This document shows, one piece after another, positions 9,036 through 35,629 of a DNA stretch of 36,252 bases. The stretch covers positions 1-36,252 of IMG/VR virus record IMGVR_UViG_3300038548_000110; one strand, 5' to 3'. Position numbers and translations under genes: made by a program. The number at the start of each line of letters is the position of its first letter. The first letter of the stretch is position 1. The notes beneath the pieces were generated by a model, which saw nothing but the letters and a program-made list of their open reading frames with translations, did no database searches and had not been told where the DNA came from. This stretch comes from a virus.

Positions 9036-9520
9036 ATTTACGTGAGCTAACAGCAGACCAAGAAGCGATACTGGCACAAGTTGAAAATGGTGATTTTAGT
9101 CTTGATGATGTGAGTGATCATTTAGATATGCTAGAAGAAGATCGCAACAAGAAGATTGAAAGCTATCTACACGTTATTAACCGATTAACTAGCGAAGAGG
9201 TCACAGTAACAGCAGAGATTGACCGCCTACAAACCATAAGGCAACAAAAGGAGAAGGCGACATCTAACGTTAAGGCATGGCTATTAATGAGCATGCAAGA
9301 TGGCGAAAATCATGAGTTTGATTTATTCAAAGTTAGCCGTGTGAAAGGTCGTGAAGTTTTACAGTTAAATGATGGTGATAGAATCCCTGTAAAATACAAG
9401 GAGTGTAAACCTGAATCATGGCACGTAGATAAACGAGCAGTATTAAAAGATTTAAAAGCAGGCATTGAAATAGAAGGTGCTGAAATAACAACGGGCAATC
9501 CGTCACTTAGAATTAAATAA
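9032..9520 (+). CDS. Siphovirus Gp157 family protein
   Basis: The 162-residue product begins MNLRELTADQEAILAQVENG and continues through a long coiled coil (residues 35-85) with EEVTVTAEIDRLQTIRQQKE, then the Gp157-type end (FKVSRVKGREVLQLNDGDRI, then VDKRAVLKDLKAG). Gp157 proteins occur in siphovirus replication/recombination clusters, next to SSB and annealing genes. They were first noted in Streptococcus phages in connection with phage resistance. The exact role is unknown. Confidence 0.8.
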   Translation: MNLRELTADQEAILAQVENGDFSLDDVSDHLDMLEEDRNKKIESYLHVINRLTSEEVTVTAEIDRLQTIRQQKEKATSNVKAWLLMSMQDGENHEFDLFKVSRVKGREVLQLNDGDRIPVKYKECKPESWHVDKRAVLKDLKAGIEIEGAEITTGNPSLRIK

Positions 9521-11020: not shown

Positions 11021-11377
11021 ATGAAAATAAACATTATATTGCTTATATTGTTAACAGGTTGTCAGTCAATACCTTCTAATTTAGTTGGTAACTGGTCAGG
11101 TAAAGTTGGGCCATTTAAAGCGAGTTTTGAATTGGGAGAGGATGGCAAAGGGGTATTCTGCTATTCAGGAAGAAAAGAAAATAAGATCGAGTGGATAAAA
11201 TACAGCGATGGTATAATCTACACTGAACGAGATACTAAAATTGTAGTGGTGATTCTAAGGCCTAACGAGCTGATTGTTGATGTTAATAATTTCGGTAATG
11301 AGCGATACACGTTTTATAAAGATGATCACTTGAGAAAAGCGAGTTGGTTTTGCTGGAAGAAGTTGCACGTTAAGTGA
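11021..11377 (+). CDS. Phage-encoded lipoprotein
   Basis: This 118-residue protein has a textbook lipoprotein signal: a basic MK, a hydrophobic run and lipobox LLTGC with the acylated cysteine at residue 14. The next residue is Gln, which favours outer-membrane sorting. The mature part reads as beta strands (NWSGKVGPFKASFEL, KIVVVILRPNELIVDV), like a small lipocalin-type barrel. It is the last early gene before a terminator. Phage lipoproteins of this kind often block superinfection by masking receptors (T5 Llp and Cor are examples), but that role is inferred. The GNWSG opening is also common in bacterial lipoproteins of unknown role. Confidence 0.6.
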   Translation: MKINIILLILLTGCQSIPSNLVGNWSGKVGPFKASFELGEDGKGVFCYSGRKENKIEWIKYSDGIIYTERDTKIVVVILRPNELIVDVNNFGNERYTFYKDDHLRKASWFCWKKLHVK

Positions 11378-11816: not shown

Positions 11817-12281
11817 ATGAGTATATTTAATGTAGGCAAATATCTTGCTGAACGTAAAAAGTTTAACTTCAGAACGTATGAAATCGAAGGTGTTGAATTT
11901 GATTTAATACCATTGACGGACGATTTAATTCAGGCGCTTAAGCTTAACCCTACACATAGTGGTTCAATGAATGCAGCTGCTAACTTTGGTATATCAGCCG
12001 GCAGAAATCGTGCGCATGACGACGCTGAAATGGCAGAAGATCTTGATGCTATCTGGGATTTAGAGCAGCTTGATATTGATTGCGAACCTAGCCTGCAACA
12101 TAAAGTTGGCGAAAAGGTTTGTGCAATTAGTGGTCTAACTGAATACATGGAAGATCTGAAGTTAGAAGAAGAAATCAAAGCAGAAGAAGCGCAAAACGTT
12201 ATCGATGGTGATAAACCTATTGATTCAGAAATTACACTTGGTCAACTAGAAGAAGATGCCCTCAATAACGTAGCAGCATAA
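11817..12281 (+). CDS. Acidic hypothetical protein upstream of the lysis genes
   Basis: The product has 154 residues. The N-terminal FRTYEIEGVEFDLIPLTDDLIQ looks like a compact beta-beta-alpha start and is loosely reminiscent of tail assembly chaperone proteins. The rest is very acidic (AEMAEDLDAIWDLEQLDIDC, LEEEIKAEEAQ). The real chaperone candidate lies at 24769, so I do not assign that function here. It is followed after 14 bases by another unknown gene. Confidence 0.5.
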   Translation: MSIFNVGKYLAERKKFNFRTYEIEGVEFDLIPLTDDLIQALKLNPTHSGSMNAAANFGISAGRNRAHDDAEMAEDLDAIWDLEQLDIDCEPSLQHKVGEKVCAISGLTEYMEDLKLEEEIKAEEAQNVIDGDKPIDSEITLGQLEEDALNNVAA

Positions 12282-12295
12282 CGGAGTAAAAGAAA

Positions 12296-12670
12296 ATGAC
12301 TATACCAGTAAAAACCTTTATAGCAAAAGTTAAAGATAGATTAGATTGGCCTTATCCTAATGCTCTTGTTGCAATTCACAATGCTTCTGTATCGTCGCAG
12401 AACACCTATACTTCTAATGACTGTAAAGGTGATTATGAGACAGAAAGTATTGTCGATACCATTGCGTACCATGCGAATTTTTGGGGTACAAAGGAAATGC
12501 AACAGTCAGGGGTACAGTCACGGCCTCTAATTAATATGGATGATAATTCTGACTTGTTCATTGTTGATTTAGAGCATGCACAATCTATACAAGTGTTAAA
12601 CGGAACGCTAAGCCCGATGGAAAAAGATTTTTTATTAATGGAGTTAGATGTTAAAAGGCGTTTTGCATAA
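12296..12670 (+). CDS. Hypothetical 124-residue protein
   Basis: The start has GGAG nine bases upstream and the stop overlaps the endolysin ATG as TAATG. The product has mixed alpha/beta segments (ALVAIHNASV, SDLFIVDLEHAQSIQVL) and no signal peptide or transmembrane segment. No family is recognised. Coupling to the endolysin gene suggests co-production, not necessarily a role in lysis. Confidence 0.5.
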   Translation: MTIPVKTFIAKVKDRLDWPYPNALVAIHNASVSSQNTYTSNDCKGDYETESIVDTIAYHANFWGTKEMQQSGVQSRPLINMDDNSDLFIVDLEHAQSIQVLNGTLSPMEKDFLLMELDVKRRFA

Positions 12671-13026
12671 TGAAGTTGTCGGCGGACTTCTCAAGGGCAG
12701 AATTTAAGTGTAATTGCGGTATTTGCGACTATGACACTGTTGATTCTGAATTGATTGACGTGCTTCAGTTGTTGCGTAGTTACATTGGTTCGCCTATAGA
12801 TATAACCTCTGGCAATCGATGCGCTGAATATAACCAAAGTATAGGCGGTGCTAAATCTTCTTATCATATAAGAGGCCGCGCAGCAGATATACAGGTTGAG
12901 GGTGCAAGCCCTGCCGTTATTCAGAACTACTTGAAAACTGCTTATCCTGATAAATTTGGGATAGGTAGTTATTCTTCGTTTACTCATATAGATACCAGAA
13001 CCAAAAAGGCGCGGTGGAATGGATAG
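12670..13026 (+). CDS. M15-family peptidase endolysin
   Basis: This 118-residue protein is a single-domain zinc peptidase of the M15 (VanY/DUF882-like) type. The metal ligands are H66 (SSYHIRGRAAD), D73 (AADIQ) and H106 (FTHIDTR). The opening DFSRAEFKCNCGIC, ITSGNRCAEYN and GIGSYSSFTHID are typical. It should cut peptide cross-links in peptidoglycan (L-alanoyl-D-glutamate or similar bonds) to lyse the host. It has no signal peptide, so it depends on a holin. The next gene overlaps its stop by eight bases. Confidence 0.88.
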   Translation: MKLSADFSRAEFKCNCGICDYDTVDSELIDVLQLLRSYIGSPIDITSGNRCAEYNQSIGGAKSSYHIRGRAADIQVEGASPAVIQNYLKTAYPDKFGIGSYSSFTHIDTRTKKARWNG

Positions 13027-13345
13027 CGATATTGATGATTTAAAAAAGATGGCGGCACCTAATTCTGAACGAATAGCGCTAGCTACTGAAGAGTTAGTAA
13101 AAGAGCAGATTATAACTAATAATTTATTATGTGCACTTTGTGACTTAAAGGAGTCACAGAACTATCACGACGATGTATTCCTTAAGGCGTGGGTTGTAAA
13201 GACAACGCATAACACATACTTTAATACTGTCGGGTTAACCGTGTCCTTTTCTGCCATATACATAGCAATAACAAGCTTGGGCGTTAACAACTCATTCTTT
13301 AGCGGTGTATCTATTTTATGGAATGCATTTAAGGGGTTGTTCTAA
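13019..13345 (+). CDS. Holin candidate with one membrane span
   Basis: The product has 108 residues. Residues 1-65 are soluble and charged (ALATEELVKEQIITNNLLC), residues 70-90 are hydrophobic (TVGLTVSFSAIYIAITSLGV), and a short C-terminus (ILWNAFKGLF) could be a second membrane contact. The gene overlaps the endolysin gene and precedes the hydrolase gene, so a holin or holin partner is the simplest idea. A single long soluble N-terminus is unusual for a holin, and an i-spanin-like role is an alternative. Confidence 0.45.
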   Translation: MDSDIDDLKKMAAPNSERIALATEELVKEQIITNNLLCALCDLKESQNYHDDVFLKAWVVKTTHNTYFNTVGLTVSFSAIYIAITSLGVNNSFFSGVSILWNAFKGLF

Positions 13346-13346
13346 T

Positions 13347-13907
13347 ATGGATATTTTAGTTCACGGGTTCAATGTTAAAGATCCAAATGATACGATAGGC
13401 AAGCTTCAGCCGTATTTAGATAAACCATTTGTATTTAATTACGGATGGTTTAGCTTGATAAGCGTTTTGCTTTACAACAAACGCGAGGCTAAAAGACTGA
13501 AAATAGTAACCAGTACTTATGATGGTAGTACTGTTTACGCACATAGTAACGGCGCGGCTATTGCGGTTGAATCAGCTAGGCAAGGCGCAAAGATTAAATT
13601 ATTGATTTGCATTAATCCCGCGCTGAAATGCAAAACCGTTTTCCCTGAATCGATTGAGCGTGTAATAGTTATTCATACTAAGCACGATAGACCGACCAAG
13701 GCTGCAAGGTTTTTTGATAAAGTGCCATTTATTCAATTGCTAGTCCCTAATAGTTGGGGCGCAATGGGCGCTAAAGGCGCTAAATTAACCGATGAAAGAG
13801 TATTTAATTGGGATTTATCAGGTAGGCTAGACGGACATAGTGATTTCTTTAAGGAAGATTGCATCGAAGGTTTAATGATAGATTTGAAAAAAATAATTAA
13901 TCAGTAA
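13347..13907 (+). CDS. Alpha/beta-hydrolase-fold protein in the lysis cassette
   Basis: The product has 186 residues from the ATG at 13347, which has AAGGGG before it. This start is chosen over an upstream in-frame start because it gives the canonical opening MDILVHGFN. HGFN (6-9) is an oxyanion-hole motif, S67 in YAHSNGAAIA is the nucleophile elbow (a variant of GHSxG), and D114 (HTKHDRPTK) and H164 (DGHSDFF) fit the acid and histidine of the triad. It is likely a lipase or esterase. Within the lysis cassette it may attack membrane lipid or another ester in the envelope, as LysB does in mycobacteriophages. That role is inferred. No signal peptide is present. Confidence 0.7.
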   Translation: MDILVHGFNVKDPNDTIGKLQPYLDKPFVFNYGWFSLISVLLYNKREAKRLKIVTSTYDGSTVYAHSNGAAIAVESARQGAKIKLLICINPALKCKTVFPESIERVIVIHTKHDRPTKAARFFDKVPFIQLLVPNSWGAMGAKGAKLTDERVFNWDLSGRLDGHSDFFKEDCIEGLMIDLKKIINQ

Positions 13908-14169: not shown

Positions 14170-14577
14170 ATGAAACTAACACCGAAACAGGATGCTTTCG
14201 TTAAGGGGTATTTACTTAACGGAGGAAACGCAACACAGGCCGCTATAGATGCGGGGTACAGTAAAAAGACAGCAAAAGTTACAGGTAGCGAAAACCTGAC
14301 TAAACCTGACATTGCCGCTTCTATAAAGGAACATCAAAGAAAGAATGATTCAAACTTCATCTATAGTAAGGATGAGAAGCTTAAATTGCTACAGAAAGCT
14401 ATGAAGCGATGCAGTATAGACGATGAGGAAAAAGGCATGCTAAATGCTCCCTCATTGATAGCAGCGATCAAAGAACATAATTTAATGCAAGGTGATAACG
14501 CACCTATTGAACAATCAGCACCTAATGAAGATATAACAAAAATAACAATCGAGGTGGTTGGTGCAAGTCAAGATTAA
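14170..14577 (+). CDS. terS: Terminase small subunit
   Basis: This 135-residue protein has the terminase-2 type N-terminal helix-turn-helix: LTPKQDAFVKGYLLNGGNAT, then QAAIDAGYSKKTAKVTGSEN and LTKPDIAASIKEH. It recognises the packaging site (cos or pac) and delivers DNA to the large subunit. The last 17 bases overlap the large-subunit gene. The AT-rich 83 bases before the gene (14087-14169) are non-coding and could include the packaging site, but no cos structure is recognisable. Confidence 0.88.
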   Translation: MKLTPKQDAFVKGYLLNGGNATQAAIDAGYSKKTAKVTGSENLTKPDIAASIKEHQRKNDSNFIYSKDEKLKLLQKAMKRCSIDDEEKGMLNAPSLIAAIKEHNLMQGDNAPIEQSAPNEDITKITIEVVGASQD

Positions 14578-15838
14578 AGCAACTAAACCACAAGCGCAAT
14601 TCTTGGCAATGGATTGCAAATTTCCTGCATTCGTTGCGGGATTCGGTACGGGTAAAAGCGAGGTGATGTGCAATTCCGCCTTGCTTGATTCTATTGAGGG
14701 TGGGAGCGATTCATTAATTGCCATGTATGAACCTACTTATGATTTGGTAAGGTTGATCCTAGCGCCACGCATGGAAGAAAAGCTTATCGATTGGGGTATA
14801 CGTTATAAATACAATAAATCAGAAAATATTATATATACGGCTAATAGTCAGATGGGTGATTTTGTATTACGTACACTTGATAATCCAGCTCGCATAGTTG
14901 GTTATGAGTCGTTCAGGGCAAAGATTGATGAACTAGATACGCTAAAAAAGGAGCACGCCCTTGAAGCATGGACAAAAATTATCGCCCGTAATCGCCAAAA
15001 CCCGAAGACGTATATTAAAACTTCAGGCAAGCCATGTAATACGGTATCAGCATTTACAACGCCGGAGGGATTCAGATTTGTCTATGACCGGTGGAAGCGT
15101 AATCCGAAAGAAGGCTATGAGATGGTACAAGCCTCTACTCTTAGCAATCCTTTTTTGCCTGATGACTATGTCGATTCTTTGCGAGCGAGTTATCCTGAAC
15201 AGTTAATCGAAGCTTACATCAAAGGTCAGTTTGTTAACTTGCAAGGCGGTACTGTTTATCGTGTGTTCGATAGAAGATTAAATCATATAGACGCGACAGA
15301 AGAAGATCACGAAAGCTTACATATTGGAATGGATTTTAACGTTGGTAAAATGTCGGCTATAGTTCATGTTGAACGTAATGGTGATCCAATAGCAGTTAAT
15401 GAGGTATTTGGCTTACTTGATACCGATGAAATGATAGCGGAAATTGATAGGCTTTACCCTGGTAGAACAATCTATGTTTATCCTGATAGTTCAGGTAAAA
15501 ACCGAAAATCAGTTAACGCTAGCGAAACGGATATTAGCAAACTAGATGATGCTGGGTACTTAACGCGCTATGATTCGGTTAATCCGTTTGTTCGTGATAG
15601 AATTAATGCCATGAATGCGATGTTGTGCAACGGTAAAGGTATTAGGCGCTATAAAGTTAATACTAACTTATGCCCTCGATATACTGACGATTTAGAGCAA
15701 CAGGTTTATAATAAACAAGGTGAGCCGGATAAAGCACACGATAACGATCACATGCCGGATGCTGGCGGTTATTATATAGCCTACACATTCCCAATAATTA
15801 AACCGATAACAAGCGTGGATTTCAAATGGCAGAACTAA
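14561..15838 (+). CDS. terL: Terminase large subunit
   Basis: I choose the GTG at 14561 because GAGG lies six bases upstream. A TTG at 14558 is too close to it. The product has 425 residues. The ATPase domain has Walker A GFGTGKS (27-33) and an acidic Walker B region near KIDELDTL. The C-terminal nuclease domain has LHIGMDFNVGKMSAIVHV with the first aspartate, YVYPDSSG, and the late acidic pair in DNDHMPDAGGYY. It powers DNA translocation into the prohead and cuts the concatemer. It overlaps both TerS and the portal gene, giving the usual packaging order. Confidence 0.92.
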   Translation: MQVKIKATKPQAQFLAMDCKFPAFVAGFGTGKSEVMCNSALLDSIEGGSDSLIAMYEPTYDLVRLILAPRMEEKLIDWGIRYKYNKSENIIYTANSQMGDFVLRTLDNPARIVGYESFRAKIDELDTLKKEHALEAWTKIIARNRQNPKTYIKTSGKPCNTVSAFTTPEGFRFVYDRWKRNPKEGYEMVQASTLSNPFLPDDYVDSLRASYPEQLIEAYIKGQFVNLQGGTVYRVFDRRLNHIDATEEDHESLHIGMDFNVGKMSAIVHVERNGDPIAVNEVFGLLDTDEMIAEIDRLYPGRTIYVYPDSSGKNRKSVNASETDISKLDDAGYLTRYDSVNPFVRDRINAMNAMLCNGKGIRRYKVNTNLCPRYTDDLEQQVYNKQGEPDKAHDNDHMPDAGGYYIAYTFPIIKPITSVDFKWQN

Positions 15839-18446: not shown

Positions 18447-18452
18447 CTAAAT

Positions 18453-18481
18453 TTGACCATTACCACAGATAAGATTACAAT
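18453..18481 (+). promoter_or_regulatory. Internal promoter before the scaffold/capsid genes
   Basis: TTGACC (18453-18458) and TACAAT (18476-18481) are separated by exactly 17 bp and lie 28 bp before the scaffold ATG at 18509, after the MuF stop. It would boost the genes needed in highest copy number. Confidence 0.5.
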
Positions 18482-18508
18482 AACTTAAACAACCAACGGA
18501 CCAATATT

Positions 18509-34475: not shown

Positions 34476-34505
34476 ACGGGGTGTTATTAATGCCCCGTTA
34501 TTTTA
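34476..34505. terminator. Terminator between convergent operons
   Basis: ACGGGG (34476-34481) pairs with CCCCGT (34493-34498), followed by TATTTTATT on the plus strand. It stops the late operon. Its second half overlaps the end of the leftward lipoprotein gene, so the same sequence may also act on the other strand. Confidence 0.55.
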
Positions 34506-34987
34506 TTGGCCTCAACAAGTGTATTTTCATGTAAAACATCAAAAATGATACTTTTGTATAAATCGGTATAAGAGTAAATGTAAAGCTCACCTCCTGACCT
34601 GTCATCTTTTGTTATATATTCATCATCATAATTATACGTATATAGGTAAGACTTTGCGAAACCGTTAATTATCGCGCCTTTAGCGGAGAACCATAAATAA
34701 CCCTCTTCATAATGGATCTGCACCTGTTTATTTTCTGACTCAACAGCCTGTACGTTTTTTGTGATTACTATTAATGATTGTGAAATATTATTTCTGTCGA
34801 TGTAATCTTGATTGTATGCAATAAATGAGGCTATAGAGTTGCACGTGTTGACGCTGAACTCATACCCGCTATAGTTTCCGTAATCATAAAATGCAAATTC
34901 AGAATCATCAGAGCAATGGTAGGTATTATCAGAATTACTACCACAACCAACAAACCCAACCATTAAAACCATCATTAATATTTTCAT
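34487..34987 (-). CDS. Second phage lipoprotein candidate
   Basis: This 166-residue protein has a signal-like start (MKILMMVLMVGFVGC) with acylated cysteine at residue 15. The lipobox is FVGC, where Phe at -3 is less usual than Leu. The mature protein is rich in Tyr, Asn and Asp and has short beta strands (GYEFSVNTC, SLIVITKNVQ, GYLWFSAKG, SYLYTYNYD). No family is recognised. It is the distal gene of the right-arm leftward operon, opposite to the late genes, a frequent place for lysogenic-conversion or exclusion genes. That function is an inference. Confidence 0.5.
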   Translation of the reverse strand: MKILMMVLMVGFVGCGSNSDNTYHCSDDSEFAFYDYGNYSGYEFSVNTCNSIASFIAYNQDYIDRNNISQSLIVITKNVQAVESENKQVQIHYEEGYLWFSAKGAIINGFAKSYLYTYNYDDEYITKDDRSGGELYIYSYTDLYKSIIFDVLHENTLVEANKITGH

Positions 34988-34988
34988 T

Positions 34989-35270
34989 CTATTCCCCGTT
35001 ATTTAATTTAATTACCTGATCAACACAATTGATAATCAAGTATTCGCCTTGCCATTGAGATTTAAACTTTAACTCTCCATCCGTTAACTTTTGACCGCTT
35101 GGAGGTTTTTCACCGTCCTTAATTTCCACACAAATAGTGCGGCCGCTTTTACTAACAATTATATCGCAACAGTTTTTTAACTGGCTAACGATTAATACGG
35201 ACCATCCAAAGCTACGGAACGCCTTTACTATTTCAGGTTGGTTGCGGTCCACCCTTGCTGCTCTAATCAT
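34989..35270 (-). CDS. PD-(D/E)XK (VRR-NUC-like) nuclease
   Basis: The product has 93 residues, using the ATG at 35270, which overlaps the HNH gene's TGA (ATGA), in place of an earlier GTG. The catalytic residues of the fold can be placed: D36 in NCCDIIVS and E49-x-K51 in CVEIKDG, followed by PPSGQKLTDGELKFKSQWQG, the extension usual in this small phage nuclease family. Such nucleases cut structured or terminal DNA and often sit beside an HNH gene in phages. The motif assignment is clear; the substrate is unknown. Confidence 0.72.
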   Translation of the reverse strand: MIRAARVDRNQPEIVKAFRSFGWSVLIVSQLKNCCDIIVSKSGRTICVEIKDGEKPPSGQKLTDGELKFKSQWQGEYLIINCVDQVIKLNNGE

Positions 35271-35629
35271 AAATCCACCCACATTAACGTCTGCAACAAC
35301 AATTCTTGTTCGGTCCCAAAGTTAGTTTCCCACTGTACGCGCCCTTGATGAACCGCTACGCCATAACCGCCCGTTCTATGATGAATATGGCACAATGGTA
35401 TTGTTTGATAGTTATCGGCACGTTTACCCATCGCTCCGTTGCCTATGTGATGAATTTCAGCAGGTGATTCGCCTAACTCTAAATTTACGCAAACTATACA
35501 CCCCATACTTGCCACTTTATTCAGATGCTTCTTTTCTTTTGCTGTTGCCGGTTTAGCCATTCGTAACCTCTCCAAATTTCGTATTTCAAGAACTGGTAAT
35601 TTAATCGTTTCGTTAAACTCCTTATTCAT
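35267..35629 (-). CDS. Ref-like HNH endonuclease
   Basis: The 120-residue product has MAKPATAKEKKHLNKVASMG, then CIVCVNLELGESPAEIHHIG, MGKRADNYQTIPLCHIHHRT and GGYGVAVHQGRVQWETNFGT, which is the hallmark of the Ref family (phage P1 Ref, a RecA-dependent nuclease) and related phage HNH proteins. Metal and catalytic histidines are in EIHH and CHIHH. Two starts are possible: ATG 35629 (AGAGG upstream) and ATG 35560 (GGAGAGG seven bases upstream), the latter beginning at MAKPAT as in many relatives. Whether cleavage here needs RecA filaments is not visible in sequence. Confidence 0.78.
   Translation of the reverse strand: MNKEFNETIKLPVLEIRNLERLRMAKPATAKEKKHLNKVASMGCIVCVNLELGESPAEIHHIGNGAMGKRADNYQTIPLCHIHHRTGGYGVAVHQGRVQWETNFGTEQELLLQTLMWVDL

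Follow-up and report, generated by a model that had tools for sequence, protein, structure and literature searches.

A minimal alpha/beta hydrolase of phage lysis cassettes as a candidate enzyme for attack on the bacterial outer membrane

Here, we identify a family of small alpha/beta hydrolases as a recurrent component of phage lysis cassettes, starting from the gene at positions 13347 to 13907 (+ strand) of a 36,252-base virus contig that lacks end repeats (hereafter the window, meaning this whole stretch of DNA). The gene almost certainly encodes a minimal alpha/beta hydrolase, an enzyme of the serine-hydrolase type. The gene recurs next to endolysin genes in unrelated phages; the simplest reading is that it acts in lysis, and we regard this as very probable. 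On balance, we lean toward a model in which an esterase without a signal peptide leaves through the holin lesion alongside the endolysin and attacks an ester of the outer membrane (OM). These findings suggest that some viruses breach the last barrier of the cell by an enzyme rather than by the usual membrane-fusing proteins.

Several lines of evidence support the assignment of the 186-residue protein to the serine esterase type of the alpha/beta hydrolase superfamily. First, the original prediction, made from the sequence alone, named an oxyanion motif HGFN, a nucleophile S67 and the partners D114 and H164. HGFN occupies residues 6 to 9 and S67 lies within AHSNG, and in an alignment of the non-redundant relatives S67 is kept in 62/62, D114 in 61/62 and H164 in 61/62. 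A triad kept in at least 61 of 62 relatives is more than chance. The alignment of the 62 clusters also revealed a nearly invariant motif that marks the family, WGxMGxxG at residues 137 to 144 (W137-G138-x-M140-G141-x-x-G144). Second, structure prediction, proposed at the outset as a check, gave a confident AlphaFold2 model (pLDDT 94.6, pTM 0.91). In this model, S67 is positioned between strand 61-66 and helix 68-78, D114 follows strand 103-110, and H164 lies between strand 152-156 and helix 170-185, so that the modeled order of the triad residues is the canonical one for alpha/beta hydrolases. Both the conservation and the order of the triad are, thus, well supported. Third, the solved structures nearest to the model are esterases and lipases, with Z scores of about 15 to known members of the superfamily; the lid-less lipase A of Bacillus subtilis (1i6w) is matched end to end (Z 14.9, 149 residues, rmsd 2.6). 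Moreover, the family profile aligns GHSNG with the nucleophile elbow GHSQG of solved cinnamoyl esterases. Matches to Pfam were weak, i.e., a sub-threshold match to Hydrolase_4 and a match to Abhydrolase_6. The protein does not belong to the GDSL/SGNH esterases, because the elbow is AHSNG, a GDSL motif is absent and the match to the alpha/beta hydrolase fold is confident. Because the fold neighbors also include aryl, feruloyl and cinnamoyl esterases as well as thioesterases, they do not point to a substrate. The hydrolase has no signal peptide, its first strand beginning at residue 2 in the model, and no transmembrane (TM) segment; it has neither the OM lipoprotein signal nor the inner membrane anchor that characterize spanins.

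The original prediction placed the gene behind those for an M15 endolysin and a membrane protein with a single span; it does lie there, and the three genes form a tight operon. The gene cluster is headed by a conserved gene of unassigned function (11817 to 12281, +), which is 41% identical to the matching gene in the related locus L005, and by a second conserved gene (12296 to 12670, +), which is 30% identical to its L005 counterpart and shares one base with the endolysin gene that directly follows (12670 to 13026, +). The latter encodes an M15-type peptidoglycan peptidase (PF08291, 4.4e-26; phrog_894 endolysin, 3.5e-38) without a signal peptide and with 54% identity to annotated endolysins of Vibrio phages; its assignment as the endolysin is firm. 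By bit score, its top match in the cultured-phage set, at 54% identity, is from a gokushovirus, one of the small phages with single-stranded DNA, and Vibrio phages come next. The following gene (13019 to 13345, +) shares 8 bp with the endolysin gene and encodes a 108-residue protein for which hydropathy indicates one C-terminal TM segment (about residues 71 to 89). This protein has no notable match among Pfam families, PHROG families or cultured phages and is weakly similar to its positional counterpart in L005 (30% over 53 residues, E 6e-6); by its position, it is a holin candidate. The ATG of the hydrolase gene is one base past the stop of this gene and is preceded by AAGGGG. Genes for the small and large terminase subunits follow (14170 to 15838, +; PF03592, PF03237), giving the order M15 endolysin, TM protein, hydrolase and terminase. 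The terminase is 64 to 70% identical to those of phages of enterobacteria, making a gammaproteobacterial host likely, and, judged from this similarity, the host of the window phage is probably Gram-negative.

The original prediction also assigned the gene to a lysis cassette, and this assignment holds well beyond the window. We scanned 49 records, i.e., the window and relatives, over their whole length for the five families M15_3, M15_4, GH108, DUF5675 and SLT. A peptidoglycan-hydrolase domain was detected in 21 of the 49 records, and in 19 of these 21 it lies at most 2 kb from the hydrolase gene. By comparison, uniform placement predicts 3.7 records within 2 kb, and the maximum in 20,000 simulations was 11. 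This linkage identifies the hydrolase gene as a lysis-cassette gene and makes it unlikely that it is stray cargo. In PHROG scans of the neighboring genes, endolysin families were among the most frequent, mostly upstream of the hydrolase, and in 45/62 loci the hydrolase start lies inside the upstream gene or at most 20 bp from its end. The neighboring peptidoglycan hydrolases are of mutually unrelated types, i.e., peptidases, glycosidases and lytic transglycosylases. When L005 and the window are compared, the two genes upstream of the endolysin are related and the membrane proteins weakly so, while the endolysins (DUF5675 in L005, M15 in the window) have no similarity; the wall-cutting enzyme was swapped and the esterase retained. 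The two genes at 11817 to 12670 also remain with the cassette in L005 despite the endolysin exchange. The gene directly after the hydrolase in L005 (2104 to 2949) has the look of an SGNH-type esterase (FIGSGQSNCQG) and perhaps encodes a virion protein.

The constant company of peptidoglycan hydrolases could also mean that the enzyme aids the endolysin, either by stripping ester groups such as O-acetyl from peptidoglycan or by cutting an ester tie between wall and membrane, and small-acyl esterases are indeed among the fold neighbors. We consider this unlikely, because the hydrolase accompanies peptidases, glycosidases and lytic transglycosylases alike. O-acetyl groups hinder mainly glycosidases, and, to our knowledge, the described peptidoglycan O-acetylesterases mostly have the SGNH fold, unlike the window hydrolase. 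Lysis regions often acquire cargo genes, and as such cargo the enzyme might degrade released lipids, capsule or biofilm, modify lipopolysaccharide (LPS) against re-infection, or cut a signal molecule. A lipase of Bacillus phage NIT1 that is released at lysis and degrades slime, as cited in PMC12173070, would be a precedent. However, the hydrolase keeps its position, before or after the endolysin, in phages that differ widely in their neighboring genes, and its gene overlaps the cassette at start and stop codons, which makes a cargo function improbable.

The hydrolase family is a virus gene family hardly sampled by cultured phages. A search of viral contigs with a single sequence found nothing, while searches with alignments of two and eleven sequences succeeded; the wide search yielded 78 sequences, which group into 62 clusters and come almost entirely from uncultured viruses. 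Using five members as queries in tblastn, we found one member among 50,697 records of cultured phages, that of Shewanella phage S0112. Among 84,980 genomes of bacteria and archaea, with one genome per species, there were five loci, and a plasmid collection gave no match to the family. At least two of the bacterial loci (L074 and L077, in a gammaproteobacterium and a Rhodocyclaceae bacterium) look like Mu-like prophages, judged by their neighboring genes. In L074 and L077, the hydrolase gene is upstream of a gp27-like gene, a position close to that of the lysis genes in Mu. A distant relative on a Parcubacteria contig (L078, 5875 to 6450) has housekeeping neighbors, SMC-like and RNase III-like by eye, and apparently does not lie in a prophage.

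In S0112, the homolog S0112_060, annotated as "alpha/beta hydrolase", shares 45% identity across 92% of the protein and is encoded shortly before a "putative endolysin" gene. The paper describing S0112 lists the gene as alpha/beta hydrolase and does not comment on its function (PMC6893657). The heuristic scan detected no spanin pair in S0112. The hydrolase gene is ∼25 kb away from a gene for a lipoprotein and two for membrane proteins, and the true holin cluster of S0112 may therefore be apart from the hydrolase. The region that holds these three genes (53145 to 54271 of S0112, corresponding to 22645 to 23771 of L123) comprises unannotated genes for a lipoprotein and a multi-span membrane protein and an annotated hypothetical protein with a C-terminal TM segment.

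The original prediction further held that the cassette lacks a clear Rz/Rz1 spanin pair, and it named a spanin pair among the neighboring small genes, or a structure without a formed catalytic triad, as findings that would speak against its reading; neither was encountered. Heuristic scans of the 36,252-base record found no spanin of either type, two-component or one-piece. In the relatives K1H and phiEap-2, which lack the hydrolase, spanin genes lie between the head-morphogenesis and scaffolding genes; in the window, the corresponding site is an empty gap of 62 bp (18447 to 18508, +). Because the record has no end repeats, it may be incomplete, and a spanin could sit in a missing piece. Two pairs flagged in the window were rejected. 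In the first, from the relaxed scan (34487 to 35282, −), the 97-residue "membrane" partner is hydrophilic and nuclease-like as read from its sequence, has no PHROG match and overlaps an HNH gene; in the second (9163 to 9506, −), the pair consists of short reading frames antisense to a longer gene. The window also has two lipoprotein-type genes. One (11021 to 11377), 1.3 kb before the endolysin gene, encodes a 13-residue signal with an LTGC lipobox and belongs to PHROG 4487 of unknown function; it has no C-terminal TM segment and no spanin-type partner. The other (34487 to 34987, −), behind a nuclease-like gene and the HNH gene, encodes 166 residues and has neither a PHROG match nor a spanin-type partner.

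Relatives that lack the hydrolase were to be checked for spanins, and phiEap-2, K1H, AXL3 and Vibrio phage 242E40-1 all turned out to have a spanin or spanin-like pair; for AXL3, a candidate o-spanin was proposed previously (PMC7504290). The scan is heuristic: at strict settings it missed known pairs in lambda and K1H. Relaxed settings brought in false pairs but recovered the spanins known from annotation or proposed in papers for lambda, K1H, phiEap-2 and AXL3, together with a plausible pair in 242E40-1. We compared 15 hydrolase-carrying records of at least 32 kb, which may be fragments, with seven control phages. When all automatic pairs are counted, 6/15 hydrolase records and 6/7 controls have one (p 0.07); after curation by hand, which was not blind, one of the 15 hydrolase records (L011) and five of the seven controls retain a pair (p 0.004). 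The Rz family PF03245 was detected in 0/49 records; given the diversity of spanins, this counts as weak evidence.

Lipoprotein genes are more frequent close to the hydrolase than at a distance (13/290 near versus 4/455 far; p 0.002), with one within three genes of it in 13/62 loci, and part of the family may, therefore, work with an OM lipoprotein. In L011, L012 and L066, a TM protein and a lipoprotein that could be spanins adjoin the hydrolase, and in L011 they form a plausible pair directly before it. Such arrangements would fit an enzyme that works with an OM lipoprotein or spanins as an accessory to normal OM disruption and does not replace it. However, in most loci, including the window, no lipoprotein adjoins the hydrolase, and the excess of curated pairs in the control phages also argues against an accessory role, which we consider rather unlikely. 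That the hydrolase replaces spanins in the window phage is plausible, although we hold it only tentatively.

We suggest the following sequence of events for an attack of the enzyme on the OM. The hydrolase would be made late and, without a signal peptide, would stay in the cytoplasm until the holin opens the inner membrane, allowing it to exit together with the M15 endolysin. Once peptidoglycan is cut, it would attack a lipid ester of the OM, possibly that of a phospholipid or an acyl ester in LPS or in a lipoprotein, with the outcome that the OM would no longer hold the cell together; a spanin pair might then be unnecessary in the window phage. That an OM lipid ester is the target is, in our view, somewhat favored.

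According to Kongari et al. (PMC6139136), a spanin could not be found in 91 of 677 phages. Whether such phages rely on disruptins or on different means of OM disruption was described as open in a 2026 paper (PMC12819732). The hydrolase family is a defined candidate answer for such phages, and its one cultured member, S0112, makes a gene-deletion test possible. The broad proposal, that a widespread esterase family replaces spanins in Gram-negative phages and destroys the OM by ester hydrolysis after holin and endolysin have acted, is possible but doubtful at present. If true, enzymes unlinked in sequence would have taken up LysB-like chemistry on two unrelated envelopes, and the family would offer a class of enzyme with the potential to open the OM of Gram-negative bacteria.

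LysB of mycobacteriophages serves the same step of lysis on a mycolic-acid envelope (PMC6116005). Like the window hydrolase, LysB of phage D29 (gp12) is an alpha/beta serine esterase without a signal peptide encoded in a lysis cassette, and the order endolysin, holin, LysB and terminase in D29 equals that of the window, where the identity of the holin is inferred. By contrast, the two enzymes have no sequence relationship (BLASTP E 1.4; hhalign profile comparison, probability 0.2%), and descent from LysB is rejected on sequence; the relatives of D29 LysB in this collection occur only in mycobacteriophages. LysB is absent among the fold matches listed for the window hydrolase, which proves nothing. 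LysB also cuts mycolyl-arabinogalactan, which is absent in the presumed host of the window phage. In our preferred reading, the window hydrolase is a third lysis enzyme, of the LysB type by function and not by descent; it is no member of the LysB family. Spanins (Rz/Rz1 and the one-piece gp11 of T1) and disruptins would serve the same step, OM disruption; these, however, are not enzymes but membrane-fusing proteins or amphipathic peptides (PMC6139136, PMC12819732). Among small solved folds, the closest is lipase A of B. subtilis (1i6w), a lid-less, minimal alpha/beta hydrolase of about 180 residues; it differs in being a secreted bacterial enzyme with 15% identity, and the WGxMGxxG region lies outside the sequence match. 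The idea that Gram-negative phages encode a lipase among their lysis genes has precedents. Nickievirus phages of Pseudomonas syringae encode a GDSL lipase (part24), active on C2 to C10 esters, beside holin and endolysin, and the authors propose that it perturbs the OM (PMC12173070); this lipase belongs to another esterase class and is a larger protein with a predicted carbohydrate-binding module (PMC12173070). Phage WO, also a phage of a Gram-negative host, has a putative lipolytic lysis cassette of a patatin-like phospholipase and a holin-like protein (PMC9203015); it differs in the enzyme family, in lacking a canonical endolysin and in its Wolbachia host, in which peptidoglycan has not been detected. 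With its other fold, no added domains and a spread over many phage types, the hydrolase family described here is a distinct variant beside these GDSL and patatin precedents.
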